The position numbers were made by a program, and so were the translations under genes. From a virus, in the IMG/VR virus record IMGVR_UViG_3300043449_000688, positions 1 to 39,937 of that record: a DNA stretch of 39,937 nt. The stretch is one strand, 5' to 3'. Shown one piece after another: positions 3,237-13,958 of this stretch. Numbering within the stretch: the stretch's first letter is position 1; every line of letters starts with the position of its first letter. The notes beneath the pieces are model-generated. The model was not told the DNA's origin and did not search any database. It was given only the letters and a program-made list of their open reading frames with translations.

Positions 3237-4935
3237 CTTTCTTTGGAAGATCCGCAAGGCTGAACCCAAGAAAGCGAGCATCGACGGCACCTTCAAGTTC
3301 TCCGCGGTGTGCCGCCAGTTCTAGGTCCCACAGCTCCAGCTTTCTTTCCTTCATCGCCCGGTCTTCATCAACTGCAAGGCTCTCGTTCCAGTACTGGATG
3401 GCACCAGCCAAGGCATCAAGGCGGTCATCGTGCTGCAGGCAGCCCTTATCGACGGTGATGTGGGTGAGCTGGTGGAACAGCTGGTAGGCCAGGCGCTTCT
3501 CAATGGCGTCGTCATCCCGCCCTTTGCAGTCGTTCTCCACCACAGAGCGGTTGACGACCAGGCGGTGTTGGTTGAGGACCGGCTCCATCGCATTGATGAT
3601 CCGCCGTTCCTTCTGCACGTTGCTGCGCACCGGCTCGATGGTGCATGGGTGATGCAGTTGCAGGTGTGGCTTGAGGAGGTTCTCCAGCATCCCTTGGCCG
3701 AACTGGTCCTCCAAGAGGATCAAGTTGACTTTGTGGCGCTTGGCGGCCTGTGCCATGGCGACCAGGACGTCATCGGTGTAGCCATCACGGAAGGCACCGA
3801 CGTCGAGGACATACAGGTTGCCGTTCAGGTGGGCGACGATGGCGTATGCGGTCTCGTCTTGGCCGCGGCCTGAGGGGTCAATGAACATGACGCAGCCCTG
3901 GAAGGGCAACCACTCGCCGTGGATGTACGCAGGGCGGTGGTAGTAGTCACCTGTGAAGCCAACAGCTGGCAGATCAGCGATGCGGTACTCGGCACCAGAG
4001 GACCACACGAGCTTCTCGGGGGCGTGATCTGACACCTCCAGCACCATGAGGTCCGCCAGCTTGAGTGGGAACCGCTCCAGGTCCGACAGGGTGGTGTCGA
4101 GTTGGAACTGCAACGCAAACGCTGACCGCCCGTAGGAGGTCTCCCGCTCCAGCAGGTCCAGCTCAGAGAAGCGATCAGGGTCTGTGGGCTTGTTGACCAG
4201 CTCCTTGGGTGGAGACACCAGGCATGGCGCCAGGTTTTCGCCGTACTTCTCTGGCTTGACGGGGTACCGGGATGGCCAGATGCGGGTGAGAAAACCCCGT
4301 GGGGCCAGCTTGGTGTAGATCGACTCCTCCGACTGGGGTGTGCCGAGGTACACGATGCGGCCATTGGGCTTGAGGATGGCGTTGAACTCACCCACTGCTG
4401 CCAGCAGCTTCTCCCGCATCCCCACCGACCAGCTGGTGGTGGGTGTTTCGACGTCGTCCGCAAGGATCAGGTCAGCCCGGGAGCCTGTCAGCTGACCAAA
4501 GATGCCCACGGACTTCACCGATGGGCTCTGGTCGGGTTGTGCAGGCCGTACATCGAAGCGGTTGGATGCTGCCCGTTGCTCATCCCGATCAGGGTCCAGG
4601 CATTGAAGGATGGGCATCTCACGGATCAACCGGAGACAGAACTGCGCAAAGTCATCAGCCCGGGTCTTAGAGGCTGACACCACCATGATCTTGAGCTGTG
4701 GGTCGTTCCGCAGTAGCCACAGCACATAAGCGGCACTGATCCAGGACTTACCCACACCCCGGAAGGCTTGGATGATGGTTCGATTGCCCCCGCCTTGGAG
4801 GTACTGGGCAATGTCCAGCTGGATGGGAGTGGGGTCCGGCAGGCTCAGGTGCCGCCAGACGACCACCAGGAAGTACTTGAAGTCTGAGGCGAAGGGCTCA
4901 GGAAGCTGATGGAAGGCAGTCCTGGCCCTTGCCAT
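3202..4935 (-). CDS. terL: Terminase large subunit (T7 gp19-like)
   Basis: 577 aa, near the 586 aa of T7 gp19. An N-terminal ATPase with Walker A AFRGVGKSW (57-65, Lys63) and Walker B LILADD (156-161) is followed by an RNase H-like nuclease domain with FIDPSGRGQDET, LLEDQFGQG and DRLDAL, supplying the metal-binding acids. It translocates DNA into the prohead and cuts concatemers. ATG 4935 overlaps the terS stop (TGATG on the minus strand). Unlike T7, this gene runs opposite to the virion genes. Confidence 0.96.
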   Translation of the reverse strand: MARARTAFHQLPEPFASDFKYFLVVVWRHLSLPDPTPIQLDIAQYLQGGGNRTIIQAFRGVGKSWISAAYVLWLLRNDPQLKIMVVSASKTRADDFAQFCLRLIREMPILQCLDPDRDEQRAASNRFDVRPAQPDQSPSVKSVGIFGQLTGSRADLILADDVETPTTSWSVGMREKLLAAVGEFNAILKPNGRIVYLGTPQSEESIYTKLAPRGFLTRIWPSRYPVKPEKYGENLAPCLVSPPKELVNKPTDPDRFSELDLLERETSYGRSAFALQFQLDTTLSDLERFPLKLADLMVLEVSDHAPEKLVWSSGAEYRIADLPAVGFTGDYYHRPAYIHGEWLPFQGCVMFIDPSGRGQDETAYAIVAHLNGNLYVLDVGAFRDGYTDDVLVAMAQAAKRHKVNLILLEDQFGQGMLENLLKPHLQLHHPCTIEPVRSNVQKERRIINAMEPVLNQHRLVVNRSVVENDCKGRDDDAIEKRLAYQLFHQLTHITVDKGCLQHDDRLDALAGAIQYWNESLAVDEDRAMKERKLELWDLELAAHRGELEGAVDARFLGFSLADLPKKDGGSWITTART

Positions 4936-5177
4936 CAGGCAGCCCTACGGGGCTTCATCTGGACCACCTTCTCCAGGTCCGGCAAAGACGACACCAGGTC
5001 CCCAAATGGTGTGGCTTCCACTGGCTGGGCACTGATGCCGTTGGACTTCAGGAACCGCTCCAGCACCGACAGCTCACTGCTGCTGATGGTCCCTTCATCC
5101 AGCTTGATCTTCAGGTGCTGAGCCAGCCCTGCATGGAGATCAGCGAGGAGCTTGTTGGGATCGTCTTTACGGGCCAT
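4935..5177 (-). CDS. terS: Terminase small subunit (T7 gp18-like)
   Basis: 80 aa (T7 gp18 is 89). The start ATG at 5177 is fixed by AGGAGGG a few bases upstream on the minus strand; the in-frame extension to 5261 is a spurious Gly/Cys-rich run. The helical region NKLLADLHAGLAQHLKIKL then SSSELSVLERFLKSNG has the pattern seen in cyanopodovirus small terminases. It is the first gene of the minus-strand unit terS-terL-unknown-endolysin and faces a large gene-free region that must hold its promoter. Confidence 0.85.
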   Translation of the reverse strand: MARKDDPNKLLADLHAGLAQHLKIKLDEGTISSSELSVLERFLKSNGISAQPVEATPFGDLVSSLPDLEKVVQMKPRRAA

Positions 5178-5352
5178 GGACCCTCCTCGTTGGAAATGGT
5201 TGGGGGAGAGAGCCTGTGGTCTTATCCCTCCCCCGCAGCACCCACCACAGGCACCAGACACACCATAGCGGTACGACGTCCCCCCAGGTCAACAAGGGCC
5301 CTAGGGACACCAGTACGCACGTACCAAGCAATAGTAGATAAAGAACTTATCT

Positions 5353-5366
5353 GGGGGGGCCCCCCC
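5353..5366. repeat. Perfect G7C7 palindrome
   Basis: Seven G followed by seven C with no spacer, in the middle of the gene-free region. Such a homopolymer palindrome is prone to assembly error and could mark a cleavage or recombination site. Confidence 0.7.
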
Positions 5367-5376
5367 TACTTAGGTT

Positions 5377-5395
5377 AACCATGGTCTACCTAGGT
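5377..5395 (+). repeat. 19-bp direct repeat, left copy
   Basis: AACCATGGTCTACCTAGGT, identical to 5491-5509. It is built from two near-identical 8-bp palindromes (ACCATGGT and ACCTAGGT) separated by CT, and overlaps a third palindrome GGTTAACC at 5374-5381. The two copies bracket two hairpins. Confidence 0.9.
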
Positions 5396-5400
5396 CAATA

Positions 5401-5419
5401 GGTGTAGCTCTGCTACACC
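5401..5419 (+). other. Perfect hairpin I between the 19-bp repeats
   Basis: GGTGTAGC, loop TCT, GCTACACC: an 8-bp stem with a 3-base loop and no U-tract following. Confidence 0.7.
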
Positions 5420-5451
5420 GGTACAGGTCCACTGCGTAGCCAGGGACAAGA

Positions 5452-5469
5452 GATGGGCGGTAGCCCATC
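5452..5469 (+). other. Perfect hairpin II between the 19-bp repeats
   Basis: GATGGGC, loop GGTA, GCCCATC: a 7-bp stem with a 4-base loop. Lies 32 bases after hairpin I. Confidence 0.7.
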
Positions 5470-5490
5470 CGCAGTCCCCAATGCACCTAC

Positions 5491-5509
5491 AACCATGGTC
5501 TACCTAGGT
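5491..5509 (+). repeat. 19-bp direct repeat, right copy
   Basis: Exact copy of 5377-5395. Immediately downstream begins the AT-richest part of the region (5509-5545). Confidence 0.9.
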
Positions 5510-5684
5510 AATAAGTAATCTCCTTATGTATTCCTATAAAAGACAGCAAGGAGAACAGCCAGACAATTAACAGCCAAACAGCCATACAACCTCTGTTCAA
5601 TTAAGTACAACGGGGGGAGCCGGGGTGGGCCGAATTTTGGTCCGAAAATGCGAGGGGCCTTACGCCTATGTGCCTGGGCCAGCT

Positions 5685-5701
5685 ACCCCCCTCCAGGGGG
5701 T
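5685..5701 (+). other. GC-rich hairpin
   Basis: ACCCCC, loop CTCCA, GGGGGT: a 6-bp stem without a U-tract in the gene-free region. Confidence 0.45.
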
Positions 5702-5806
5702 GCCTGGTCGGACCTGAGAGGGCCAGGGGGGGTGCCATGCAACAAGGCCCCGCAACACGGAGCCCTAAGCCCTTGGTATGACAGGGATCCCAGGGGACTG
5801 CAGATC

Positions 5807-5825
5807 CCTAGGGGGCCTAGGTTTT
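5807..5825 (+). terminator. Short intrinsic-terminator-like hairpin
   Basis: CCTAGG, loop GGG, CCTAGG, then TTTT. The stem is only 6 bp, so this is a weak candidate; it would stop rightward transcription before the early genes, for example read-through entering from a concatemer junction. Confidence 0.4.
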
Positions 5826-6020
5826 GAGAATGATTCCCAGTCTCCCTGGTCACCTGAGCAGGCCTGAGTAAGCGAGGGAGATGTACGCCGCCCCTTCAAC
5901 CCAGTCCACCTCAGTGGACCTTGGCGCTCGAAACGGCCTGGGCTGGCCACACCCCCAGATCTGGTGCTAGGTTGGATACAGGCAAGGGAGACCAGGCCGA
6001 CCCACCACGCAACACCTGCC

Positions 6021-6215
6021 ATGTACGTGACCTACGAAGACAGCGTGCTCGATCACGCCGACCACCACGGCAACCTGAGCCGTGGGGACGCAGCCAAGCT
6101 TCTTCAGGACCACGGCTTCACCCTGGACGACCTCTACGAGGACAGCCATGGGGTTAGCTGGGTCCACCTGGACGAGCGCAACGCCGAGGCCCTGCTGGCC
6201 TGGCTTGGCTACTGA
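6021..6215 (+). CDS. Early hypothetical protein 1
   Basis: 64 aa, acidic. ATG 6021 (MYVTYEDSVLDHADHHGNLS) is preferred over an in-frame ATG at 5964 because it sits 12 bases after ACCCACCAC, the same spacing as in the 6281 and 10323 leaders. His/Asp-rich N-terminus; C-terminal ERNAEALLAWLGY helix. No family recognised. As first gene of the early block it is a candidate for host takeover or anti-defence, by position only. Confidence 0.65.
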   Translation: MYVTYEDSVLDHADHHGNLSRGDAAKLLQDHGFTLDDLYEDSHGVSWVHLDERNAEALLAWLGY

Positions 6216-6243
6216 TCTCAGCCCGGAGCCCTTCGGGGTTCCC

Positions 6244-6280
6244 TGCTGGGCTCACCAGCACCCACCACGCACCTAGACAG
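6244..6280 (+). promoter_or_regulatory. Leader element A1: stem-loop + ACCCACCAC
   Basis: TGCTGG, loop GCTCA, CCAGCA (6244-6260), then ACCCACCAC (6260-6268) and CACCTAGAC (6270-6278) just before ATG 6281. No Shine-Dalgarno. Nearly the same element precedes the 7278 gene. Confidence 0.7.
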
Positions 6281-6667
6281 ATGACCGCAACTCTTTACCC
6301 CTGCGACTACTCCCACCAGCTGCACACCATCTCCACGGATGACAGGCATCGGGTGACCGTCCGGCAGATCATCGACGCCATCGACGCTTGGGTGCAGTTC
6401 AATCTGCAGACTGAGCACGGCCTGGCCATCAACGGGCAGGAAATTTACTGGCTCGACTACGCCGAGGGCCAGGGCCACCAGGTACCGGCTCACACCGGCC
6501 CGCTGCTACGGCTTGGCGTCCGGCCCGGCAGCAATGAGGGCTGGATCCTGGCTGCTTACGTTGAAGGCAAAGCCACGCCAATTCTGAGCGCCAAGCTTTG
6601 GACCTTGGACGCTGCCTGCCAGCTGATGGCTGCCCTGACCCGCGCCAGTGCTGACTGCCTGGTTTGA
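6281..6667 (+). CDS. Early hypothetical protein 2
   Basis: 128 aa from ATG 6281, preceded by leader element A1. Soluble and mixed alpha/beta by composition: RVTVRQIIDAIDAWVQFNLQ is an amphipathic helix, and GWILAAYVEGKATPILSAKL looks like beta strands. No signal peptide or catalytic motif recognised. Function unknown. Confidence 0.7.
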   Translation: MTATLYPCDYSHQLHTISTDDRHRVTVRQIIDAIDAWVQFNLQTEHGLAINGQEIYWLDYAEGQGHQVPAHTGPLLRLGVRPGSNEGWILAAYVEGKATPILSAKLWTLDAACQLMAALTRASADCLV

Positions 6668-6697
6668 CCCTCTCCCAGGGCCCACACCGGGTCCTCT

Positions 6698-6774
6698 GAG
6701 GGGCTCACCCTCCCGCTCTGGCGTCAGCCAGCAGGGAGGGCCCACCCTCACCCACCACACCGCACCTAGACAAC
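6698..6774 (+). promoter_or_regulatory. Leader element B1: three tandem stem-loops + ACCCACCAC
   Basis: GAGGG-GCTCA-CCCTC (6698-6712), CTGGC-GTCA-GCCAG (6718-6731), GAGGG-CCCA-CCCTC (6736-6749), then ACCCACCAC (6750-6758) and CACCTAGAC (6763-6771) before ATG 6775. Every loop ends in CA. Confidence 0.7.
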
Positions 6775-7068
6775 ATGGACACCACGTACAACGGCTGGCG
6801 CAACCATGCGACGTGGGCCATTGGCCTGCATTGCATGGACTCCGTCGTCAGCTGGATCTGCGATGACCTGGACAGCTGGGGCAAGGATGACGACCTGGAC
6901 TCAGCCGTCGCCTTGTTTCAGGATCTTTTGGCTGAGCAGATCGAAGCGTCTGGCGTGGCCACGTATCCCCTGCTTTGGGATCTGCTGGATACGTCAGACA
7001 TTGATTGGTACAGCTTGGCTCGACATGCCCTCGAAGCAGCTGAGATCCCTCAACTGGTTGAGGCCTGA
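6775..7068 (+). CDS. Early protein with NGWxNxATW motif (phage DUF family)
   Basis: 97 aa. The N-terminus TTYNGWRNHATWAIGL matches the TYNGWxNYxTW signature of a small acidic family widespread in phages (I recall DUF7249). Acidic and helical, ending in an LARHALEAAEIPQLVEA helix. Function unknown. Followed after 3 bases by a small membrane-protein gene with which it probably shares a transcript. Confidence 0.75.
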   Translation: MDTTYNGWRNHATWAIGLHCMDSVVSWICDDLDSWGKDDDLDSAVALFQDLLAEQIEASGVATYPLLWDLLDTSDIDWYSLARHALEAAEIPQLVEA

Positions 7069-7071
7069 GCC

Positions 7072-7203
7072 ATGCGCCAATTCCTGACTGTGCTGGCCAC
7101 TGCTGCAGGTTCCGCCGTCCTATGGGCGGCCACCCTGCACGAACTGGCCAAAGCCCCGGTGACCCACACCGGAACCCAGCCCTACCACCAGGTAGACCGC
7201 TGA
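7072..7203 (+). CDS. Small single-pass membrane protein
   Basis: 43 aa from ATG 7072, three bases after the preceding stop. Residues 4-22 (FLTVLATAAGSAVLWAATL) form one membrane helix or an uncleaved signal anchor; the remainder is a short polar tail. Position among early genes suggests an envelope-acting protein such as superinfection exclusion, but that is speculation. Confidence 0.5.
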   Translation: MRQFLTVLATAAGSAVLWAATLHELAKAPVTHTGTQPYHQVDR

Positions 7204-7233
7204 TCCCATCACGGAGGGGCCCCGGCCCTTCCC

Positions 7234-7277
7234 TGCTGGGTTCACCAGCACCCACCCACCCATACCCACACCGACCG
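7234..7277 (+). promoter_or_regulatory. Leader element A2: stem-loop + ACCCACCCA
   Basis: TGCTGG, loop GTTCA, CCAGCA (7234-7250), then CCCACCCACC before ATG 7278. Same stem as A1 with a single loop change (C to T); no Shine-Dalgarno. Confidence 0.65.
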
Positions 7278-7505
7278 ATGCAAACCACCATCCGCCTCGG
7301 CTACTACCTCACCCCCCAGGAGCACGACGACAGGGCCAACAGCTGGGCCGACACCGCATCCCGCACCATCGCAGCTGGCCACCCTGTCACCATCGAAGGG
7401 ATCGACTGGCAGCCTGCCTGCCAAGCTCACGGCTTCTACGGCGCCATCCTGAAAGTGAAGGCGGCACACCGCCAACGCAAAGCGGCAGCCGCGGCCAACA
7501 CCTGA
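7278..7505 (+). CDS. Early hypothetical protein 5
   Basis: 75 aa from ATG 7278, chosen over an upstream in-frame ATG (7122) because of leader A2 and because the upstream part overlaps the 7072 gene. Starts MQTTIRLGYYLTPQEHDDRA and ends in a basic, Ala-rich tail (RQRKAAAAANT). No recognised family. Confidence 0.6.
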   Translation: MQTTIRLGYYLTPQEHDDRANSWADTASRTIAAGHPVTIEGIDWQPACQAHGFYGAILKVKAAHRQRKAAAAANT

Positions 7506-7535
7506 CTCTCTCCCAGGGGGCATCCCGCCCCCTCT

Positions 7536-7577
7536 GAGGGACTCACCCTCACCCACCACCACACACCCCTAAGAACC
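7536..7577 (+). promoter_or_regulatory. Leader element B2: stem-loop + ACCCACCAC
   Basis: GAGGG, loop ACTCA, CCCTC (7536-7550), directly followed by ACCCACCAC (7551-7559) and then ATG 7578. Shares flanking CTCTCCCAGGG with B1 (about 6669-6680 and 7507-7518). Confidence 0.7.
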
Positions 7578-7760
7578 ATGGCCTTACGTCTGGACGCGGT
7601 GCGTCGCATCGCCTCTGACCTGGATTACACCGTCGAGCGGGCAGCCGTAGACCACGGCCTGCCCATGCACGATGTGTGGGACGCAGATGACCACTACCTG
7701 GGGCGCCTCACCCTGCGAGGGTTGCGCCTGCTGATTGGCTCTGTGTCTGAGCAGGATTAA
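7578..7760 (+). CDS. Early hypothetical protein 6
   Basis: 60 aa from ATG 7578 after leader B2. Starts MALRLDAVRRIASDLDYTVE; the first helix plus a GRLTLRGLRLLIG segment gives a small mixed-charge protein without membrane segment. No family recognised. Confidence 0.6.
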   Translation: MALRLDAVRRIASDLDYTVERAAVDHGLPMHDVWDADDHYLGRLTLRGLRLLIGSVSEQD

Positions 7761-7832
7761 GAACCACAACAACGCCAGGTCCAGCCACCTCTCGCCGGGG
7801 CAGGCTGGGCCCGGTTCAACCCACCACCACCC

Positions 7833-8084
7833 ATGAAGAGATTCATTGTGTTGGCCCTGGCCATTGTGTTGGCCCCGGTCACAGCATCAGCCGATGACTT
7901 GCGTTCCTCTATCACTGACTTCTGCGCTGCCATCGTGGATGCCAACCAGATGGGCATCAGCGCAGCTCCTGGCACTGTGTTTGCAGAGCGCATCATCCGC
8001 CGCGCTAAGTCGGACTACAGCTACGTCGAGCTATGGCACCTGGCCAAAGGCATGGGCATCCCGTCCTGCCGTGCCATGTGGTGA
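7833..8084 (+). CDS. Early secreted protein (signal peptide)
   Basis: 83 aa from ATG 7833, 5 bases after an ACCCACCAC (7819-7827). A textbook signal peptide spans residues 1-20: MKR, hydrophobic FIVLALAIVLAPV, and TASA before DD. The mature ~63 residues carry two Cys (C31, C79) that could form a disulfide in the periplasm, and a helical core. An early phage protein sent to the envelope could block superinfection or modify the cell surface. Cyanophages and cyanobacteria both have small secreted proteins with similar C-termini (HLAKGMGIPSCRAMW), but I cannot assign a family. Confidence 0.75.
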   Translation: MKRFIVLALAIVLAPVTASADDLRSSITDFCAAIVDANQMGISAAPGTVFAERIIRRAKSDYSYVELWHLAKGMGIPSCRAMW

Positions 8085-8086
8085 CC

Positions 8087-8275
8087 ATGAAAGGACCTGC
8101 TCATCACCTGCTGTTGCAGGCAGCAGCCCGCCTCAATGCAGACGGGCACGTCGAACTGGCAGCAGACATCCTGCAGCTGGCCAGGCAATGGACACCGGAA
8201 TCAGAGCAGCAACTCGTTGGTCATCCCAATGTGTTGCCACTGCAGCAAGGCATGGAGCCCTTGCATGACACGTGA
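8087..8275 (+). CDS. Early hypothetical protein 8
   Basis: 62 aa from ATG 8087, two bases after the previous stop. HLLLQAAARLNADGHVELA and ADILQLARQWTPE form two helices. Soluble, function unknown. Its last 11 bases overlap a possible membrane ORF starting at 8265. Confidence 0.55.
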   Translation: MKGPAHHLLLQAAARLNADGHVELAADILQLARQWTPESEQQLVGHPNVLPLQQGMEPLHDT

Positions 8276-8423
8276 CGTCGCACTGAACACGGCCACCATT
8301 GTGTTGGTCCTTTGGTCCCTCGTCGGACTGGCTCACCAGATGAGCCACCCACCTACACCCACCCCACCTATTCCCCATGACACAAGAACCCACAGACCTG
8401 CAGCTGGCCCAGCTCTACCGTGA
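8265..8423 (+). CDS. Possible small membrane protein overlapping both neighbours
   Basis: 52 aa from ATG 8265. Residues ~8-24 (NTATIVLVLWSLVGLAHQ) form one membrane helix; the tail is Pro/His-rich low complexity because it reads through the C-rich leader of the 8377 gene. Overlaps its neighbours by 11 and 47 bases. The hydrophobic segment argues for reality, the tail composition against a conserved full length. Confidence 0.4.
   Translation: MTRDVALNTATIVLVLWSLVGLAHQMSHPPTPTPPIPHDTRTHRPAAGPALP
8328..8346 (+). promoter_or_regulatory. Leader-type stem-loop upstream of the 8377 gene
   Basis: CTGG-CTCA-CCAG (8328-8339) or, as an alternative fold, GGCTCA-CCAGA-TGAGCC (8330-8346), followed by ACCCACCTACACCCACC before ATG 8377. 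A degenerate member of the leader family, here inside a reading frame. Confidence 0.4.
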
Positions 8424-8529
8424 CTGGTGGAAGGACAGCTACGGCACCAGCCCCAACTCACAGGCCACCGTCATTGCCATTGCATGGGCCCGCCATGTGT
8501 TGGCTACCCAAGAGGCAGGCAATGACTGA
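8377..8529 (+). CDS. Early hypothetical protein, WWKDSYG motif
   Basis: 50 aa from ATG 8377. The core AQLYRDWWKDSYGTSPNSQA and a following AIAWARHVLAT helix match a small family I remember from marine Synechococcus phages. Ends with TGA overlapping the next ATG (ATGACTGA), so translation is coupled. Function unknown. Confidence 0.6.
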   Translation: MTQEPTDLQLAQLYRDWWKDSYGTSPNSQATVIAIAWARHVLATQEAGND

Positions 8530-8731
8530 CCTTTCCTCCTCTGCTCAGGCGGTGCTGGATGCCTTTTGGAAAGGCCTCATGTACCCAGACGATCTGAATG
8601 GAAGCAACATCGCCGCGGCCTTGCGAGCTGCTGCGGAGCAGTTGAGCTACGCCAGGGGGCCTGGCCTTGTTGTTGACGTTGACGACATCCTCGCTATTGC
8701 CACTGAGCTGGAGGCCTATGTCGATGACTGA
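8522..8731 (+). CDS. Early hypothetical protein, IAAALRAAAEQL motif
   Basis: 69 aa from ATG 8522 (MTDLSSSAQAVLDAF). IAAALRAAAEQL is the hallmark of a short family abundant in marine Synechococcus and their phages, from memory. Acidic C-terminus (LEAYVDD). Overlaps both neighbours by 8 bases using the same ATGACTGA junction, so it sits in a translationally coupled chain. Function unknown. Confidence 0.7.
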   Translation: MTDLSSSAQAVLDAFWKGLMYPDDLNGSNIAAALRAAAEQLSYARGPGLVVDVDDILAIATELEAYVDD

Positions 8732-9017
8732 CACCCAAGTGATGGCGACGCTGCGCAATGAGCTGCTCAACGCCATGTATGCCACCTTCCCCAGGCCGTT
8801 GGACAAGCGGACATTGGGAGAGGAGTGTCGGACTCGGTTCCTGACACGGGATAAGCAGTGGTACACCGACGCCCTCAACGAACAAGTGAAGGTGCTGGAG
8901 TACTCGGGCCTGGTCCGCCCGTCCAATGGGGGCTACACCCTCACGGAACGGGGACGCATGGACAGGCAACAGGCTGCCCGCTTCTTCCCTGTCACCACAC
9001 CACCCGATGCGGCATGA
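8724..9017 (+). CDS. Early winged-helix-like protein
   Basis: 97 aa from ATG 8724, which shares the ATGACTGA junction of the upstream gene (an alternative ATG lies at 8718). NEQVKVLEYSGLVRP followed by GGYTLTERGRM is the recognition helix and wing pattern of a winged-helix fold, as in small DNA-binding regulators. A role in early transcription control is plausible but unproven. Overlaps the next gene by ATGA. Confidence 0.6.
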   Translation: MTDTQVMATLRNELLNAMYATFPRPLDKRTLGEECRTRFLTRDKQWYTDALNEQVKVLEYSGLVRPSNGGYTLTERGRMDRQQAARFFPVTTPPDAA

Positions 9018-9301
9018 CCACTGACACCAACGCCATGCTGGCCGAGAGAGGCCAGCGATACGGTGACTTCATGGGCCATGCCCAGGTCACCATGAGTCTG
9101 AAGCTGGCCATCCGCAGCCATGTGTACAGCAAAGACATCAAGATGCAGCCCGACCAATGGGAAGCACTGGACATGATCTGCCACAAGATTGGTCGGATCG
9201 TGAACGGTGACCCCAACTACGTGGACAGCTGGCAAGACATTGCTGGCTACGCATCCCTGGTTTCCAACCGCTTGAGTGGCAATGACCTCCCCTTCGGATG
9301 A
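9014..9301 (+). CDS. DUF6378-like conserved phage protein
   Basis: 95 aa from ATG 9014. ERGQRYGDFMGHAQ, then WEALDMICHKIGRIVNGDPN and DSWQDIAGYASLV match a conserved all-helical family found in many phages (I recall DUF6378). The HxKIxRI and DxxxDIAGY pattern resembles MazG-like/NTP pyrophosphohydrolase helices, so nucleotide-pool control is possible but unproven. Member of the overlapping early chain. Confidence 0.8.
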   Translation: MTTDTNAMLAERGQRYGDFMGHAQVTMSLKLAIRSHVYSKDIKMQPDQWEALDMICHKIGRIVNGDPNYVDSWQDIAGYASLVSNRLSGNDLPFG

Positions 9302-9518
9302 CCTGCTGACTCGGTGCCTTGCCGAGTACTGGGACCCCAAGCACAGCGTTGCTGTGTTGCGCAGCCGTAGCCGGATGCGTGGTGTGGTTCAGCTGCTGGC
9401 TGATGAGCTGCGCAGCTGGGCACCTGATGAAGGGCAGGCCAGGATCTGCCACCTGGCCATCAACGAGGTGGCCGACCGTTTACTCCGTGACACCCAAGAC
9501 GATGCCTTACCAACCTGA
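9282..9518 (+). CDS. Early hypothetical protein 13
   Basis: 78 aa from ATG 9282 (a GTG at 9276 is possible), overlapping the previous gene by 20 bases. Helical and Arg-rich: SRSRMRGVVQLLADELRSW and AINEVADRLLRDTQ. No family recognised. Confidence 0.6.
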   Translation: MTSPSDDLLTRCLAEYWDPKHSVAVLRSRSRMRGVVQLLADELRSWAPDEGQARICHLAINEVADRLLRDTQDDALPT

Positions 9519-9660
9519 ATGGCGACAAGAGGATGAGCAACGGGTGCGCTCGATGGAGTGCCTCTACCTCATTGACCAACGCGACAAGTCTGACCACCCA
9601 CGCCGCCACACCTACACCGGGTTGTGGGAGCAGTACCGGGGGCAGAAGGCCAATGGCTAA
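9502..9660 (+). CDS. Early hypothetical protein, HTYTGLWEQYR motif
   Basis: 52 aa from ATG 9502 inside the previous gene's end. Strongly charged: ECLYLIDQRDKSDHPRRHTY then TGLWEQYRGQK. The H-x-YTGLWxxY pattern recurs in small cyanophage and cyanobacterial proteins, from memory. Overlaps the next gene by 8 bases. Confidence 0.55.
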   Translation: MPYQPEWRQEDEQRVRSMECLYLIDQRDKSDHPRRHTYTGLWEQYRGQKANG

Positions 9661-9892
9661 GCGCGAGAACTACGTCCTCACCTGGCAGGAGGACGACCGC
9701 CCTGTCATTGGTGAAGGACTGAGCCGCACTGCCAACATGACCGACCCGTTGTGGCTGGTGGATGTGGAGTTTGGCGCTGGCCCTCGCATGAAGAGCACCG
9801 TACGTGCAGCCAACAAAAGGGATGCACTGAAGTACGCAAAGAATCGCCACCCCAAAGCATCAAGCATCAACGTAATTGGCCGAGCCCGATGA
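9653..9892 (+). CDS. Early hypothetical protein 15
   Basis: 79 aa from ATG 9653, with an AGAAGG upstream that can act as ribosome site. Alternating beta-like stretches (YVLTWQEDDRPV, WLVDVEFG) end in a basic helix NKRDALKYAKNRHPKA. Coupled by ATGA to the next gene. Function unknown. Confidence 0.6.
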   Translation: MAKRENYVLTWQEDDRPVIGEGLSRTANMTDPLWLVDVEFGAGPRMKSTVRAANKRDALKYAKNRHPKASSINVIGRAR

Positions 9893-10236
9893 CACCATCT
9901 ATTCCCACTATGGACTACTTGCCTGAGAATGTGCACGACATCGTGCAATCAAAACCAACCAGCATGGACGCAGACAAGGAGGGACAGGTCTTGTACTTCC
10001 ACCCACGTCTTGGCTGGTACTCCGCTAACTGGACGTACGTCTTGCACACAGGTACGACACACTGGACCTACTGCCCTGAGCGCCCGCCTGTATCTGATGA
10101 AGATCCAAAAGCCCTGCGCCGCAAGGCGTTTGACGCATGGGCTTCATCGTTCGAGATTGAACTTACTGCTCCAACGAAAGCCTTTGCTGAGCTGGTATGG
10201 AACGCAGCATGGAACAAATTAAAGCCTGTCAATTAG
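9889..10236 (+). CDS. Early hypothetical protein 16
   Basis: 115 aa from ATG 9889 (ATGA overlap). Aromatic-rich middle (FHPRLGWYSANWTY, THWTYCPE) and a C-terminal AFAELVWNAAWNKL helix. Base composition is slightly poorer in GC than its neighbours. Last gene of the early chain; the following 86-bp gap carries a host-type promoter candidate for the integrase. Confidence 0.65.
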   Translation: MTPSIPTMDYLPENVHDIVQSKPTSMDADKEGQVLYFHPRLGWYSANWTYVLHTGTTHWTYCPERPPVSDEDPKALRRKAFDAWASSFEIELTAPTKAFAELVWNAAWNKLKPVN

Positions 10237-10262
10237 GATCCCTATACACGCTTATTGTTATC

Positions 10263-10290
10263 TTGACCTGCCCGCATTAGGGCAAATACT
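10263..10290 (+). promoter_or_regulatory. Sigma-70-like promoter with dyad in its spacer, upstream of integrase
   Basis: TTGACC (10263-10268), a 16-base spacer, then AATACT (10285-10290). The spacer is itself an inverted repeat TGCCC-GCATTA-GGGCA (10269-10284), a natural operator position. It could separate integrase control from the early chain. Confidence 0.45.
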
Positions 10291-10322
10291 GACCAACCAC
10301 CACCCACCACAGGAACACCACC

Positions 10323-11408
10323 ATGAAGGGGAAAGCCAGAGACGGGATACGCCAGCGTGGCAACAGCTACCTGGTTGACGTCACCGTCCAAGGTGAGCGA
10401 CGTACTGCCACCTACCAGAGCTACGAAGAAGCGGTCATCGGACGGCTGCAGCTGGAAGCTGAGCTGCGTGGTGCGGTGATCAAGCGGGAGGTGGCAGCAA
10501 CCACCGCCAGCTGGACCATGAAGAAGGCGTACGACACCACGCTGGAGATGCGGTGGCGTGACACCAAGAACGAAGTGAAGGCAGCCCGTAATGCACGGGA
10601 CGCTGTGTCGTTCTTCGGCAACGACCGACCCATGGATTCCATTCGGATGGCTGACGTGGATGAGTACGTCAAGCACCTGCGCAAGAAGAGCAACAGCCCG
10701 GGCACCATCAACCGCAAGCTGGCCAGCCTGTCGGCCATGTTCACCGATGCCGAGGAGCGGGGTGGCTGCATCAAGAAGCCACGGCTGATCCGCCAACCGG
10801 AGCCCACGCATCGCATCCGGTACCTGTCGCCAGAAGAGGAGCAGCTACTGGCCAGCTTGATGATTCAGTGGAATCAACCGGCTGTGCTGGAAGCCATCAC
10901 CGTGCTGCTCGATACGGGCATGAGGGTGGGCGAGCTGCTCAACCTGCAGATCAAGGACATCGACCTGCGGGAGAACATCATCTCCATCTGGCAGAACAAG
11001 GGTGACCTGCCCCGCTCTGTGCCCATGACCCATCGGGTGCGGGAGATCATCGCTGGTCGGTGTGCTGCCAGCCGCGGCCTGGTTTTCTACAACCTGACCC
11101 GTGAAACCTTGCGGTACTACTGGGATCGGGCACGGTCAGCCATGGGCCTGGACGATGACGACCAGTTTGTGCCTCATGCCCTGCGCCACACCTGCGCCAC
11201 CCGGTTGGTGCAGTCAGGCGTCAGCCTGTACGTGGTGCAGAAGATCCTTGGTCACAGCTCCATCCAAGTCACAGAGAAGTACGCACACCTGTCCCAGCGC
11301 GAGCTGAAGGATGCCATCAAGGTGCTGCAAGGGACCGTCATCCCCGCCCTGCAACCTGTTGCGAAGCCCGCAACATTTGTTGCCGAGGCGATGGCAGCCC
11401 ATCGCTAA
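10323..11408 (+). CDS. int: Tyrosine recombinase / phage integrase
   Basis: 361 aa from ATG 10323, 12 bases after ACCCACCAC (10302-10310). An N-terminal arm-binding region, a SAM-like core-binding domain (about 55-140), and the catalytic domain with R201 (TGMRVGELL), H285 and R288 (HALRHTCATRL), H311 (LGHSSIQV) and the nucleophile Y320 (EKYAHLS). All core catalytic residues I could check are present, so it looks active. It is directly followed by a tRNA-derived segment, the expected attP. Cyanopodoviruses such as P-SSP7 carry an integrase in the same place before the RNA polymerase. Confidence 0.95.
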   Translation: MKGKARDGIRQRGNSYLVDVTVQGERRTATYQSYEEAVIGRLQLEAELRGAVIKREVAATTASWTMKKAYDTTLEMRWRDTKNEVKAARNARDAVSFFGNDRPMDSIRMADVDEYVKHLRKKSNSPGTINRKLASLSAMFTDAEERGGCIKKPRLIRQPEPTHRIRYLSPEEEQLLASLMIQWNQPAVLEAITVLLDTGMRVGELLNLQIKDIDLRENIISIWQNKGDLPRSVPMTHRVREIIAGRCAASRGLVFYNLTRETLRYYWDRARSAMGLDDDDQFVPHALRHTCATRLVQSGVSLYVVQKILGHSSIQVTEKYAHLSQRELKDAIKVLQGTVIPALQPVAKPATFVAEAMAAHR

Positions 11409-11410
11409 GT

Positions 11411-11510
11411 CATTGATTCTGGTGGGCCCCCCGGGAGTCGAACCCGGCACCAACGGATTATGAGACCCGGGCTCCACCAGGTCAGTGCTTGCCATGCAAC
11501 CCATTGATTC
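11411..11510. repeat. 9-bp direct repeats flanking the attP-like segment
   Basis: CATTGATTC occurs at 11411-11419 and again at 11502-11510, bracketing the tRNA-derived core. Such repeats can be integrase arm-type sites. Nine bases is short enough to be chance. Confidence 0.4.
11420..11464 (-). other. attP: Putative attP: 3' half of tRNA-Met(CAU)
   Basis: On the minus strand the segment reads as a tRNA 3' half: anticodon loop CTCATAA (CAU anticodon, 11458-11464), TCCGT, variable loop, T-arm CCGGG-TTCGACT-CCCGG, GGGGCCC, discriminator A and encoded CCA (11420-11422). The 5' side does not complete the anticodon stem and no 5' acceptor strand is present, so it is not a whole tRNA. A D-arm-like GGTGGAGC just beyond (about 11471-11478) may be chance or a longer match. 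A tRNA 3' half beside an integrase is the standard attP layout; integration would restore the host tRNA gene. Confidence 0.8.
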
Positions 11511-11519
11511 CCCACGCAA

Positions 11520-13958
11520 ATGTCTGGCCCATCGGGCGCAATCCCCGCGTCCCCTTCTCCACCTTGTTGCCGAACGGAGGACGATCAGCTCGCCCTGGAG
11601 CAGGAGATGCTGCAGCTGGGGGCGGATCGTATCAGCCTGCTCACCAACCGCCGCCGCCTGTTGCGCATGGAGTCCCTGTCCAACTACGGGCAGAGCCTCA
11701 CCGTTGCAGGCATCGACCAGGTGATTGACGTCCTGCGCTATCACCGTCGTCAGATCAGAGATGGGGGAGCAGGCCCCCGCTACGCCCACCTGCAGCCCCT
11801 GCTTCAGCTGGCCCCGCACAAGGTGGCTGCTGTCGCCTTGCGGGTGATCGTTGACTCCATCACCCAGGTCAGCAAGCAGCACGCCCTTGCCTACGAGGTG
11901 GCGGACAAGCTGTGGATGGAGACCATGCTGGCCCGGGCCACCATGTGGGAGCGGAAGAACCACAAGCAGCGCCGGATGCGGTTGAAGTGCAAGACCGCCG
12001 ACATCCTGCGCATGAAGAACACCATCATCTGGACCCCGCAGGAGCGGCTGAGTGTTGGTGTCTTCCTGATCCAGCTCATTGCCCAATACACCGGGCTGAT
12101 CGCTGTCACCTTGGAGCAGAGCGCCTGTCGCAAGGTGCGCAGGGTGCGAGCCACTGATGCCTGCATCGCCTGGATCCGGGAGATGGAGGAGCAGGACAAG
12201 ATGCTCTGCCCCTTCACCCTGCCAATGGTGATACCGCCGCGGCCATGGGAAGGGGTGATGGAAGGTGGCTACCTCAATGCCATGCACATCAACCCCACCT
12301 TGATGAAGGAGGACCCGGAGCTGGTGGCCGCCAAGGTCACAGGCACTGAGCCCTTCATCCAAGCTGCCAACCACCAGCAGTCAGTGCCGTACCGGGTGAA
12401 TGGCTGGGTGCTGGAGCAGCTGCAGCTGGCATGGGACAAGGGCCTGGAGATCGGATCACTCATGCCACGTGAAGGGTGGGAGGTGCCGCCCTACCCCAAG
12501 CACCTGCCTGATGACCACCCCGACGTGACGCAGTGGAAGTTCAACGCACGCCAGATCCATGACCGCAACGACAAGACCAGGAACAAGCGCATCGCTACAG
12601 CCAAGCTGCTGTGGGTGGCACGGCGGATGGAGAGCGAGCCATCCATCTGGTTCCCCATGCAGCTGGACTTCAGGGGTAGGTATTACTACCGGCCTGGGTT
12701 CCTCAACCCACAAGGCAGCGACATGGCCAGGGCCCTGCTGCTGTTCGCCAATGGCACGCCCATCACCACCGACGAGGAGGCCAACTGGCTGCGCATCCAT
12801 GGCGCCAACTGCTACGGGTACAGCAAGACCAGCTGGCAAGCACGGCTGGACTGGGTGCATGAACACCAGCTAGAGATCGAGGCGACAGGTCGTGATCCCT
12901 GGCGGACGGTTGAGTTCTGGTCCAGGGCTGACGACCCGTGGCAGTTCCTTTCTTTCTGTCGCACGTACCAGGAGTTCAGCCACCAGGGCTACGGCTACAT
13001 CTGCCACCTGCCTGTCGTCCTGGACTGCACCTGCTCTGGCATCCAGCACTACGCCGCACTGCTCCGCTCTGAGGAGATGGCGCAGCTGGTGAACCTACTC
13101 CCGTCAGAGCAACCGCAGGACATCTACACCGTGGTGCTGAACCGGGTGCTGGCCCAGGTGCGCAAGGACGCAGAGGATGGCGACCCTCATGCCACCAGCT
13201 GGTTGCAGCTGCAGCCTGATCGCTCACTGCTCAAGCCCGTGGTGATGACCACGCCGTACTCAGCCACACGTCGGGCGATCTTTGGGTTCTGCCAGAGCTG
13301 GGCCTTTGATCGCACGGTTGAGCTGTACGGCATGGATGGCTGGTGCTTCAAGAAGGGAGCAATGGCAGCCATGCACTACATGACCACCATCGTCTGTCGA
13401 GAGACGGCGGAGGTGATCGGCCCAGCCAAGAAGGCGATGCACTGGCTGAAGCAGGTGGGTCGGCTGGCTGGTGAGCACGACATCGAGCTGTCGTGGACTG
13501 CGCCGTCAGGGCTACCGGTTCACCAGAGGTACATGGACTACCGAGGCGTGCGCATCAAGCTGCATCACCTGTCCCCGGTGTCGATGGACCTGCTGTCCAA
13601 CCACATCCCCGATGGGCTCAGCCCCAAGCGGATGGGCAATGGGCTCAGCCCCAATGTCATCCATTCACTGGACGCCAGTCACATGGCGTTGTCCACCATC
13701 GACGCCTTCAGCAATGGCGTACACAACCTGGGAGGAATCCATGATTGCTTCAGCACGACCCCCGCCGAGATGGCACAGGTGCGCAACTCAGTGCGCAATG
13801 CCTTTGCTGCCATGTACCAGCACGACTGGTTCTCCACCATCACTGGTGAACTTCTGCGACAGATCCCCCTGGATCTTCAGCACAAGCTTGCCCCTGTTCC
13901 CAAACTATCCCGGCTGGACGTCACCACTGTTCAGCACGCTGACTACTTCATCACATGA
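11520..13958 (+). CDS. T7-type single-subunit DNA-dependent RNA polymerase
   Basis: 812 aa (T7 gp1 883). The catalytic set is intact: D502 in VLDCTCSGIQHY (T7 D537), R568 and K572 in RSLLKPVVMT (T7 R627, K631), Y580 in TTPYS (T7 Y639) and D742 in GIHDCFST (T7 D812). The QLALEQE near residue 25 aligns with T7 LAREQLALEHE, so the N-terminal domain is short but complete. ATG 11520 has no Shine-Dalgarno; an internal ATG at 11607 behind a GGAG is a less likely alternative because it would cut into the conserved start. It transcribes the replication and virion genes. It follows the attP, as in other cyanopodoviruses. Confidence 0.96.
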   Translation: MSGPSGAIPASPSPPCCRTEDDQLALEQEMLQLGADRISLLTNRRRLLRMESLSNYGQSLTVAGIDQVIDVLRYHRRQIRDGGAGPRYAHLQPLLQLAPHKVAAVALRVIVDSITQVSKQHALAYEVADKLWMETMLARATMWERKNHKQRRMRLKCKTADILRMKNTIIWTPQERLSVGVFLIQLIAQYTGLIAVTLEQSACRKVRRVRATDACIAWIREMEEQDKMLCPFTLPMVIPPRPWEGVMEGGYLNAMHINPTLMKEDPELVAAKVTGTEPFIQAANHQQSVPYRVNGWVLEQLQLAWDKGLEIGSLMPREGWEVPPYPKHLPDDHPDVTQWKFNARQIHDRNDKTRNKRIATAKLLWVARRMESEPSIWFPMQLDFRGRYYYRPGFLNPQGSDMARALLLFANGTPITTDEEANWLRIHGANCYGYSKTSWQARLDWVHEHQLEIEATGRDPWRTVEFWSRADDPWQFLSFCRTYQEFSHQGYGYICHLPVVLDCTCSGIQHYAALLRSEEMAQLVNLLPSEQPQDIYTVVLNRVLAQVRKDAEDGDPHATSWLQLQPDRSLLKPVVMTTPYSATRRAIFGFCQSWAFDRTVELYGMDGWCFKKGAMAAMHYMTTIVCRETAEVIGPAKKAMHWLKQVGRLAGEHDIELSWTAPSGLPVHQRYMDYRGVRIKLHHLSPVSMDLLSNHIPDGLSPKRMGNGLSPNVIHSLDASHMALSTIDAFSNGVHNLGGIHDCFSTTPAEMAQVRNSVRNAFAAMYQHDWFSTITGELLRQIPLDLQHKLAPVPKLSRLDVTTVQHADYFIT

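Follow-up and report, generated by a model that had tools for sequence, protein, structure and literature searches.

Small early genes of viruses of aquatic cyanobacteria are separated by a new, widespread family of structured RNA elements, in which one arm can pair with either of two others and the upstream stop codon forms part of one of the two alternative helices. The family was recognized in a virus record of the T7-like temperate cyanophage type, whose 39,937 bases constitute the window analyzed here and contain four copies. The element is best read as a bistable intercistronic RNA that would be gated by the terminating ribosome and would insulate neighboring genes and/or control mRNA processing.

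The Phage and Its Gene Set

In addition to a tyrosine integrase and a T7-like RNA polymerase (Table 1), the window encodes a primase/helicase, an exonuclease, T7-like head and tail genes and a leftward terminase. Its nearest cultured relatives are the P-SCSP1 phages of Prochlorococcus (50% identity for the RNA polymerase, 74% for the terminase), a clade described as having no DNA polymerase gene (PMC9860041), and none was detected among the window proteins tested. The large virion proteins have matches to families of internal virion proteins, peptidases and tail proteins, and an N4-type virion polymerase was not found among them. A megablast search with window positions 4800-12800 against phages returned no match.

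Several further features of the record were observed. A partial tRNA gene, its 3' half from the anticodon region (CAT) through CCA, is located directly behind the integrase gene at 11421-11472 and is likely to represent attP. It is common to the related contigs L001, L003, L004, and L122, while L123-L129 carry a different, Leu(UAA)-like tRNA 3' half (TTTAAGTC), so that related integrases apparently use different tRNA sites. A perfect 19-bp direct repeat, AACCATGGTCTACCTAGGT, at 5377-5395 and 5491-5509 lies in a 740-bp gene-free region ahead of the early genes and may serve as a regulator site or belong to the genome end. A tandem 18-bp repeat, CATTGTGTTGGCCC(T/C)GG, is found within an early gene (7844-7879), and words like ATGTGTTGGCC recur across early genes here as well as in L001 and L004.

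Architecture of the Element

The full element comprises about 48 nt, starting at the UGA stop codon of the upstream gene. This codon is followed by one base, arm A (6 nt), a short internal loop, hairpin P2, the dinucleotide CU and arm A' (6 nt), and then by one base, UCA, arm A'' and an A/C-rich leader. UGA and arm A pair with A' and UCA to form helix P1, which encloses the strong hairpin P2. Arm A' can also pair with A'' just downstream to form hairpin P3, and P1 and P3 are mutually exclusive as they share this arm. The length of P2 is variable and its loop reads UNCG in 46 of 88 copies. In the alignment, a near-continuous helix emerges that carries a conserved internal loop (5' NC, 3' CU) and a conserved mismatch between the base after UGA and its partner (C.C, U.U, U.C or A.C).

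The first-pass annotation had described a single motif, a short stem-loop joined to the leader, in front of the early genes. The reported hairpin is real and corresponds to P3, the 3' half of the element, and the stems named (TGCTGG/CCAGCA at 6244 and 7234; GAGGG/CCCTC at about 6698, 6735, and 7536) are present; helix P1 at the stop codon, hairpin P2 and the fact that the two folds exclude each other had been missed. The stem reported at about 6736 also exists, but it holds the far partner of the copy at 6665, which carries an inserted hairpin. The masked fold of this copy (see below) pairs A' with the far CCCTC, which accounts for the reported stem.

No intrinsic terminator (GC-rich hairpin and T run) was found at the four window copies, where A/C-rich sequence comes next, and no promoter-like site was found within or beside them. 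A different, simpler hairpin of early genes, GGCCCCA-NCNA-TGGGGCC, is placed in several relatives between the stop codon and the A/C leader, which it directly precedes (L031 5844, L126 7120, L128 2719, L129 5775).

Table 1. Elements, leaders and associated features in the window. R1 is the covariance model of the element; SD, Shine-Dalgarno sequence.
Feature	Position	Strand	Details
9-mer ACCCACCAC	5240, 6000, 6260, 6750, 7551, 7819, 10302, 14915	+	three further copies on the - strand
TGCTAGGTT, extended -10-like sequence	5965-5973	+	upstream of the 6000-6020 leader
A/C leader without element	6000-6020	+	ahead of first early gene, ATG 6021
Element copy 1	6213-6259	+	R1 69.9 bits, E 2.2e-14; UGA 6213-6215 (gene 6021-6215), A 6217-6222, P2 6225-6242, A' 6245-6250, then loop/UCA to 6254, A'' 6255-6259; P1, 6213-6222 with 6245-6254; P3, 6245-6249 with 6255-6259
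A/C-rich SD-less leader (ACCCACCAC)	6260-6280	+	copy 1 to ATG 6281
Element copy 2	6665-6749	+	R1 52.1 bits, E 3.0e-10; 6665-6712 lengthened by insert; UGA 6665-6667 (gene 6281-6667), A 6669-6674, A' and UCA 6698-6707, near A'' 6708-6712; inserted second hairpin CCCTCCC 6708-6714/GGGAGGG 6734-6740; far A'' 6745-6749 (CCCTC, beside leader), pairs with A' in masked fold
A/C-rich SD-less leader	6750-6774	+	copy 2 to ATG 6775
Element copy 3	7201-7249	+	R1 72.2 bits, E 6.3e-15; UGA stop of gene 7072-7203, A 7205-7210, P2 within 7211-7234, A' and UCA 7235-7244, A'' 7245-7249
A/C-rich SD-less leader, ACCCACCCACCC variant	7250-7277	+	copy 3 to ATG 7278
Element copy 4	7503-7550	+	R1 59.8 bits, E 4.7e-12; UGA stop of gene 7278-7505, A 7507-7512, P2 within 7513-7535, A' and UCA 7536-7545, A'' 7546-7550
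A/C-rich SD-less leader	7551-7577	+	copy 4 to ATG 7578
A/C leader without full element	7819-7832	+	ATG 7833; stop of upstream gene is TAA
TTGACC-N16-AATACT promoter-like site	10263-10290	+	upstream of integrase leader
A/C leader without element	10302-10322	+	before integrase ATG 10323
Tyrosine integrase gene	10323-11408		
T7-like RNA polymerase gene	11520-13958		

Comparative Evidence for the Fold

Relatives were gathered via their RNA polymerase, capsid and integrase proteins, and these revealed that the conserved unit begins at the upstream stop codon. A 63-copy alignment was assembled from motif scans of viral contigs and a descriptor search. In this alignment, 93.9% of the P1 and P2 cells are paired, as compared with 74.8% in shuffled and at most 54% in slid controls, 11 of the 16 pairs vary on both sides, and cells with two-sided changes number 164 versus 49.5 in shuffles. 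Pairing of P3 in a fixed register amounts to 89%, which is an underestimate because A'' is shifted by 2-3 nt in some copies. RNAalifold recovered the UGA-UCA pairing, P1 and P2 unprompted. The motif scans had selected on P3 and not on P1 or P2, which were nonetheless present.

The model found 88 distinct copies in T7-like cyanophage contigs, which contain 17 different A' sequences; P1 is kept in 87 of them (at least 5 of 6 pairs) and P3 likewise in 87 (at least 5 bp). Swapping A' between classes lets the pairing fall to 1.1% for P1 and 7.2% for P3. The covariation of the stems that had initially been noted is consequently borne out in relatives. A combined scan for P1, P2 and P3 in contigs fetched by protein and not by motif identified four hits in the window, 13 in relatives (11 of them supported by the model) and six in cultured phages, while reversed sequences gave none. 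Scan hits in L201 and on the minus strand of L198 (both in the cultured set) and, among the relatives, on the minus strand of L122 and at L123 7933 are probably chance or antisense matches, and motif hits without TGA or P2 (e.g., L136, L156, L166, L176, L182) were judged to be chance. At the level of sequence comparison, it is established that P1, P2 and P3 pair, that the three arms covary and where the element is located.

Gene Boundaries and Spacing

The stop codon UGA provides the first three bases of the element in 77 of 88 copies, and in the remaining 11 the stop lies 1-12 nt upstream. In 78 of 86 cases, 23-33 nt separate UCA from the next AUG. Stop-codon readthrough was considered and rejected, since the distance from UGA to AUG is spread over all three frames (37/28/21) and the length of P2 varies. 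The genes next to the 88 copies fall into 44 protein groups on the downstream and 44 on the upstream side, and homologs from different phages bear different A' arms. Therefore, the element goes with gene boundaries rather than with any specific gene. Judged from these sequences, the pattern resembles that of shuffled cassettes, yet complementarity rather than sequence is conserved.

Predicted Bistability

Folding was computed on isolated RNA, a treatment that ignores ribosomes, proteins and kinetics, and a mask over the first 12 nt was used to mimic a ribosome with UGA in its A site. The mean free energy was -25.9 kcal/mol for the free and -24.1 kcal/mol for the masked RNA, which places the two states less than 2 kcal/mol apart. 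Upon masking, the probability of P3 exceeded 0.5 in all 88 copies, as compared with 51 of 264 shuffled controls (19%), while free folding gave a probability above 0.5 for P1 in 61 of 88 copies. These calculations support the energetic bistability of the modeled element. In the window copies, leader and AUG are unpaired to a similar extent in the two calculated states (0.58-0.76 vs. 0.49-0.76); neither fold hides the start site and none of the arms overlaps the start codon.

The A/C-Rich Leader

The 9-mer ACCCACCAC occurs 11 times in the window, against 0.86 +/- 1.03 expected from dinucleotide shuffles, and none of 100 shuffles reached 11 copies. This excess had been set beforehand as a check of the first-pass annotation, whose 9-mer positions and spacing were all confirmed, the ATG being located exactly 12 nt past the 9-mer at 6021, 6281, and 10323. 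The claim that early genes lack SD sequences held as well: an SD-like tetramer, even a loose one, is present in just seven of 86 element-linked leaders, whose mean A+C content is 84%, and a purine-rich anti-SD complement 5-12 nt before the AUG is not a feature of these leaders. Late genes preceded by a gap (e.g., 22020, 23058, 38871) carry AGGAG or GGAG, and the major capsid gene is among these late users.

Stem-loop and 9-mer had been joined into one motif; both are present, but they are two separate features, since the 9-mer is also found without the element at 6000 and 10302, behind promoter-like sequence. The -10-like sequence TGCTAGGTT is conserved as TGCTAGGAT in L001 and as TGCTAGGGT in L004, with the same layout in both. 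In cyanobacteria, SD-free genes show C/A signals near -15 and weak structure (PMC5397173; PMC3121790). As the early leaders match this pattern in the position of their C/A signals, the absence of an SD and the low structure around the AUG, the ACCCACCAC leader is by analogy best read as ordinary host-style SD-independent initiation, distinct from the element. In contrast to the cyanobacterial leaders, a near-identical 9-mer is repeated here within one early operon and late genes of the same phage use AGGAG/GGAG.

The orphan ACCCACCAC copy at 5240 is enclosed by an inverted repeat, GCCTGTGGT...ACCACAGGC (5213-5252), which precedes the GAGGAGG of the leftward small terminase gene and belongs to the 5' region of this gene. 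Both the copy and the repeat are conserved in the relative L001 near 2323, before the small terminase gene on the opposite strand.

Distribution

Apart from the four window copies, R1 gave about 120 matches in related contigs, including some from overlapping records. The search of whole records covered 13 cultured phages and 12 viral records; 15 of these 25 contained hits. Wherever gene positions were read, hits are confined to the early region, adjoining terminase, integrase or RNA polymerase genes, and T7-like phage genes are present on the contigs examined at the protein level. The cultured carriers are S-RIP1, S-CBP3, and S-SRP02 (two strong copies and one weak). P-SSP10 probably carries one copy, which keeps all three arms and reached E 0.022 in one search but fell below notice in another. 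P-SCSP1u, which is the closest of the cultured relatives, gave no significant R1 hit, and neither did eight further cultured cyanophages or six more distant T7-like contigs (polymerases 26-29% identical). R1 was built mainly from GC-rich copies and may therefore miss AT-rich versions. Four copies are located at 1987-3791 of L145, a relative of 42% GC, where an A' variant, GATGTC, is accompanied by A and A'' arms that match it and offers a handle for tracing the element into low-GC phages.

A BLAST search with 62-65 nt of the element against phages and plasmids yielded chance matches only; consequently, the copies in cultured phages were reached solely by the structure-based search. Two scans across bacterial genomes turned up no prophage, their sole match being one unrelated tRNA. 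No Rfam 15 family was matched at E<=1 by the elements in the window, L172, L142, L184, and L145, and the S-SRP02 genome paper leaves hairpins and terminators unmentioned (PMC8790148). The family appears to be undescribed in Rfam and in the open-licence papers found.

A Proposed Model of Ribosome-Gated Insulation

In the proposed model, UGA and the next 7 nt would pair with A' and UCA whenever the stop codon is unoccupied, and P1 would form one long hairpin over P2. A ribosome terminating at UGA would cover arm A, whose last base is nucleotide 10 of the element, while P2, beginning at about position 13, would lie roughly at the expected downstream edge of this ribosome. Arm A' would thereby be freed to pair with A'' in P3. 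The A/C-rich leader would remain outside the helices in both folds and could accommodate one 30S initiation footprint. A stable helix right behind the stop would bar terminating and post-termination ribosomes from the next SD-less start, the start site itself being accessible irrespective of stop occupancy, and the prevailing fold may decide whether nucleases cut the boundary or leave it protected.

Structure just behind a stop codon was found to reduce translational coupling (screen reviewed in PMC12548453), and post-termination ribosomes accumulate in 3' regions when recycling fails (PMC7538156). Both observations make insulation the leading idea, and we assign a probability of roughly 0.5 to the reading that the element mainly insulates adjacent early cistrons, with cutting or protection of the boundary possibly also following the fold. 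Against insulation and gating stands that P1 is the favored free fold in only 61 of 88 copies, and gating would be weaker or absent in the 11 copies whose stop lies upstream of the element. With the start site hidden in neither fold, the sequence also displays no output of a switch. Moreover, a pure insulator needs one stable hairpin, yet A'' is kept, which implies a further role and shows the second fold to be of importance. The initial suggestion that the element acts on translation or processing at the RNA level holds up as a class of explanation; as to the specific function, gating by ribosomes in vivo is inferred, as are insulation and processing, if any.

Alternative Explanations and Known Systems

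By analogy with the RNase III sites between T7 early genes, the element might serve as an mRNA processing or stability site, a reading that we regard as unlikely, although it comes closest among the alternatives. The helix of P1 and P2 would be cut or would shield the 3' end of the upstream mRNA, while the fold of P2 and P3 would block cutting or shield the 5' end of the downstream mRNA. Like the T7 sites, the element is an intercistronic helix in the early polycistronic mRNA of T7-like phages; its internal loop, its never-pairing base mismatch in an otherwise near-continuous helix, the absence of a U-tract and the existence of two folds that would be very different substrates fit such a role. 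Processing alone leaves the constant spacing from UCA to AUG unexplained, and unlike the T7 sites the element is bistable with a third complementary arm and tied to a UGA stop. The fixed distance to the AUG and the attenuator-like three-arm layout with a stop codon in the first arm are accommodated by control of coupling, in which upstream translation would flip P1 to P3 and thereby raise or lower initiation at the next AUG. This is improbable in view of the start codon lying outside the arms and of the similarly unpaired leader and AUG in both calculated states. As neither fold hides the start site or forms a terminator, a classical attenuator output is unsupported. The comparison with trp/pheA-type leader RNAs is nonetheless instructive: in both, alternative hairpins share one arm (each helix being kept here in 87 of 88 copies), and a ribosome over the first arm selects the other fold, as masking does here by prediction. 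In contrast to these attenuators, the element is located between genes and not in a leader-peptide region, includes the stop codon within a helix, has neither a terminator with a U-tract nor a hidden start site, its leader being about equally open in both folds, and occurs at up to four boundaries per genome. On the basis of the predicted folds, it belongs to the class of alternative RNA structures gated by ribosomes, its position being new and the outputs known for that class being absent.

It is very improbable that the element acts chiefly at the DNA level, as a recurring palindrome at module boundaries that lets small early genes shuffle by recombination. The many flanking protein groups and the differing A' variants of homologous genes agree with this idea, but recombination would favor sequence identity, whereas the arms diverge while three-way complementarity is kept; the constancy of its orientation and of its position at the stop codon and the absence of a promoter also argue against it. 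The PeSL cassettes of T4-type phages, defined as an early promoter joined to a stem-loop (PMC4503421), for which such shuffling has been proposed, are likewise recurring stem-loop modules between small, variable early genes. They differ from the present element, which belongs to a different phage family, diverges in sequence with its pairing kept and has no early promoter joined to it at the four window copies. A cis-acting RNA role in transcription, through antitermination, pausing or a hairpin promoter, is hardly credible: two adjacent hairpins do recur in early transcripts, but a U-tract terminator is found at no copy and the strict tie to the stop codon would be left unexplained. Hairpin promoters exist in N4-like phages. 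The single-strand hairpin promoter considered in the first-pass annotation is disfavored here, as the phage carries a T7-like RNA polymerase, the only one found, and an N4-type virion-encapsidated enzyme was not seen among its large virion proteins, and as the elements are located only at gene ends and keep complementarity with 17 arm sequences. A promoter for the phage RNA polymerase was also considered and rejected; the guessed late-promoter word occurs no more often than by chance and the elements are only early. The Rfam cyanophage motifs manA, wcaG, and PhotoRC-II are structured RNAs of cyanophages as well, but they precede metabolic or psbA genes in other phages (PMC2864571) and none of them matches the element.

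Implications

The element bears on the question of how neighboring genes of one mRNA are kept translationally separate in systems that often lack SD sequences. With a stop codon inside a conserved switch that is repeated at several boundaries, this question can now be tested. The broader proposal that a self-contained bistable class around the stop codon senses terminating ribosomes at every early boundary and converts this into a local output falls a little short of an even chance. If true, such a new class of intercistronic RNA would have spread through T7-like cyanophages and would determine whether mRNA is cut or protected, or would act on initiation, with no need for ligands, proteins, terminators or a sequestered start site. 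The element would also be a compact candidate part for gene insulation in synthetic cyanobacterial operons. It represents an abundant and strongly supported RNA structure in well-known aquatic phages, published genomes included.
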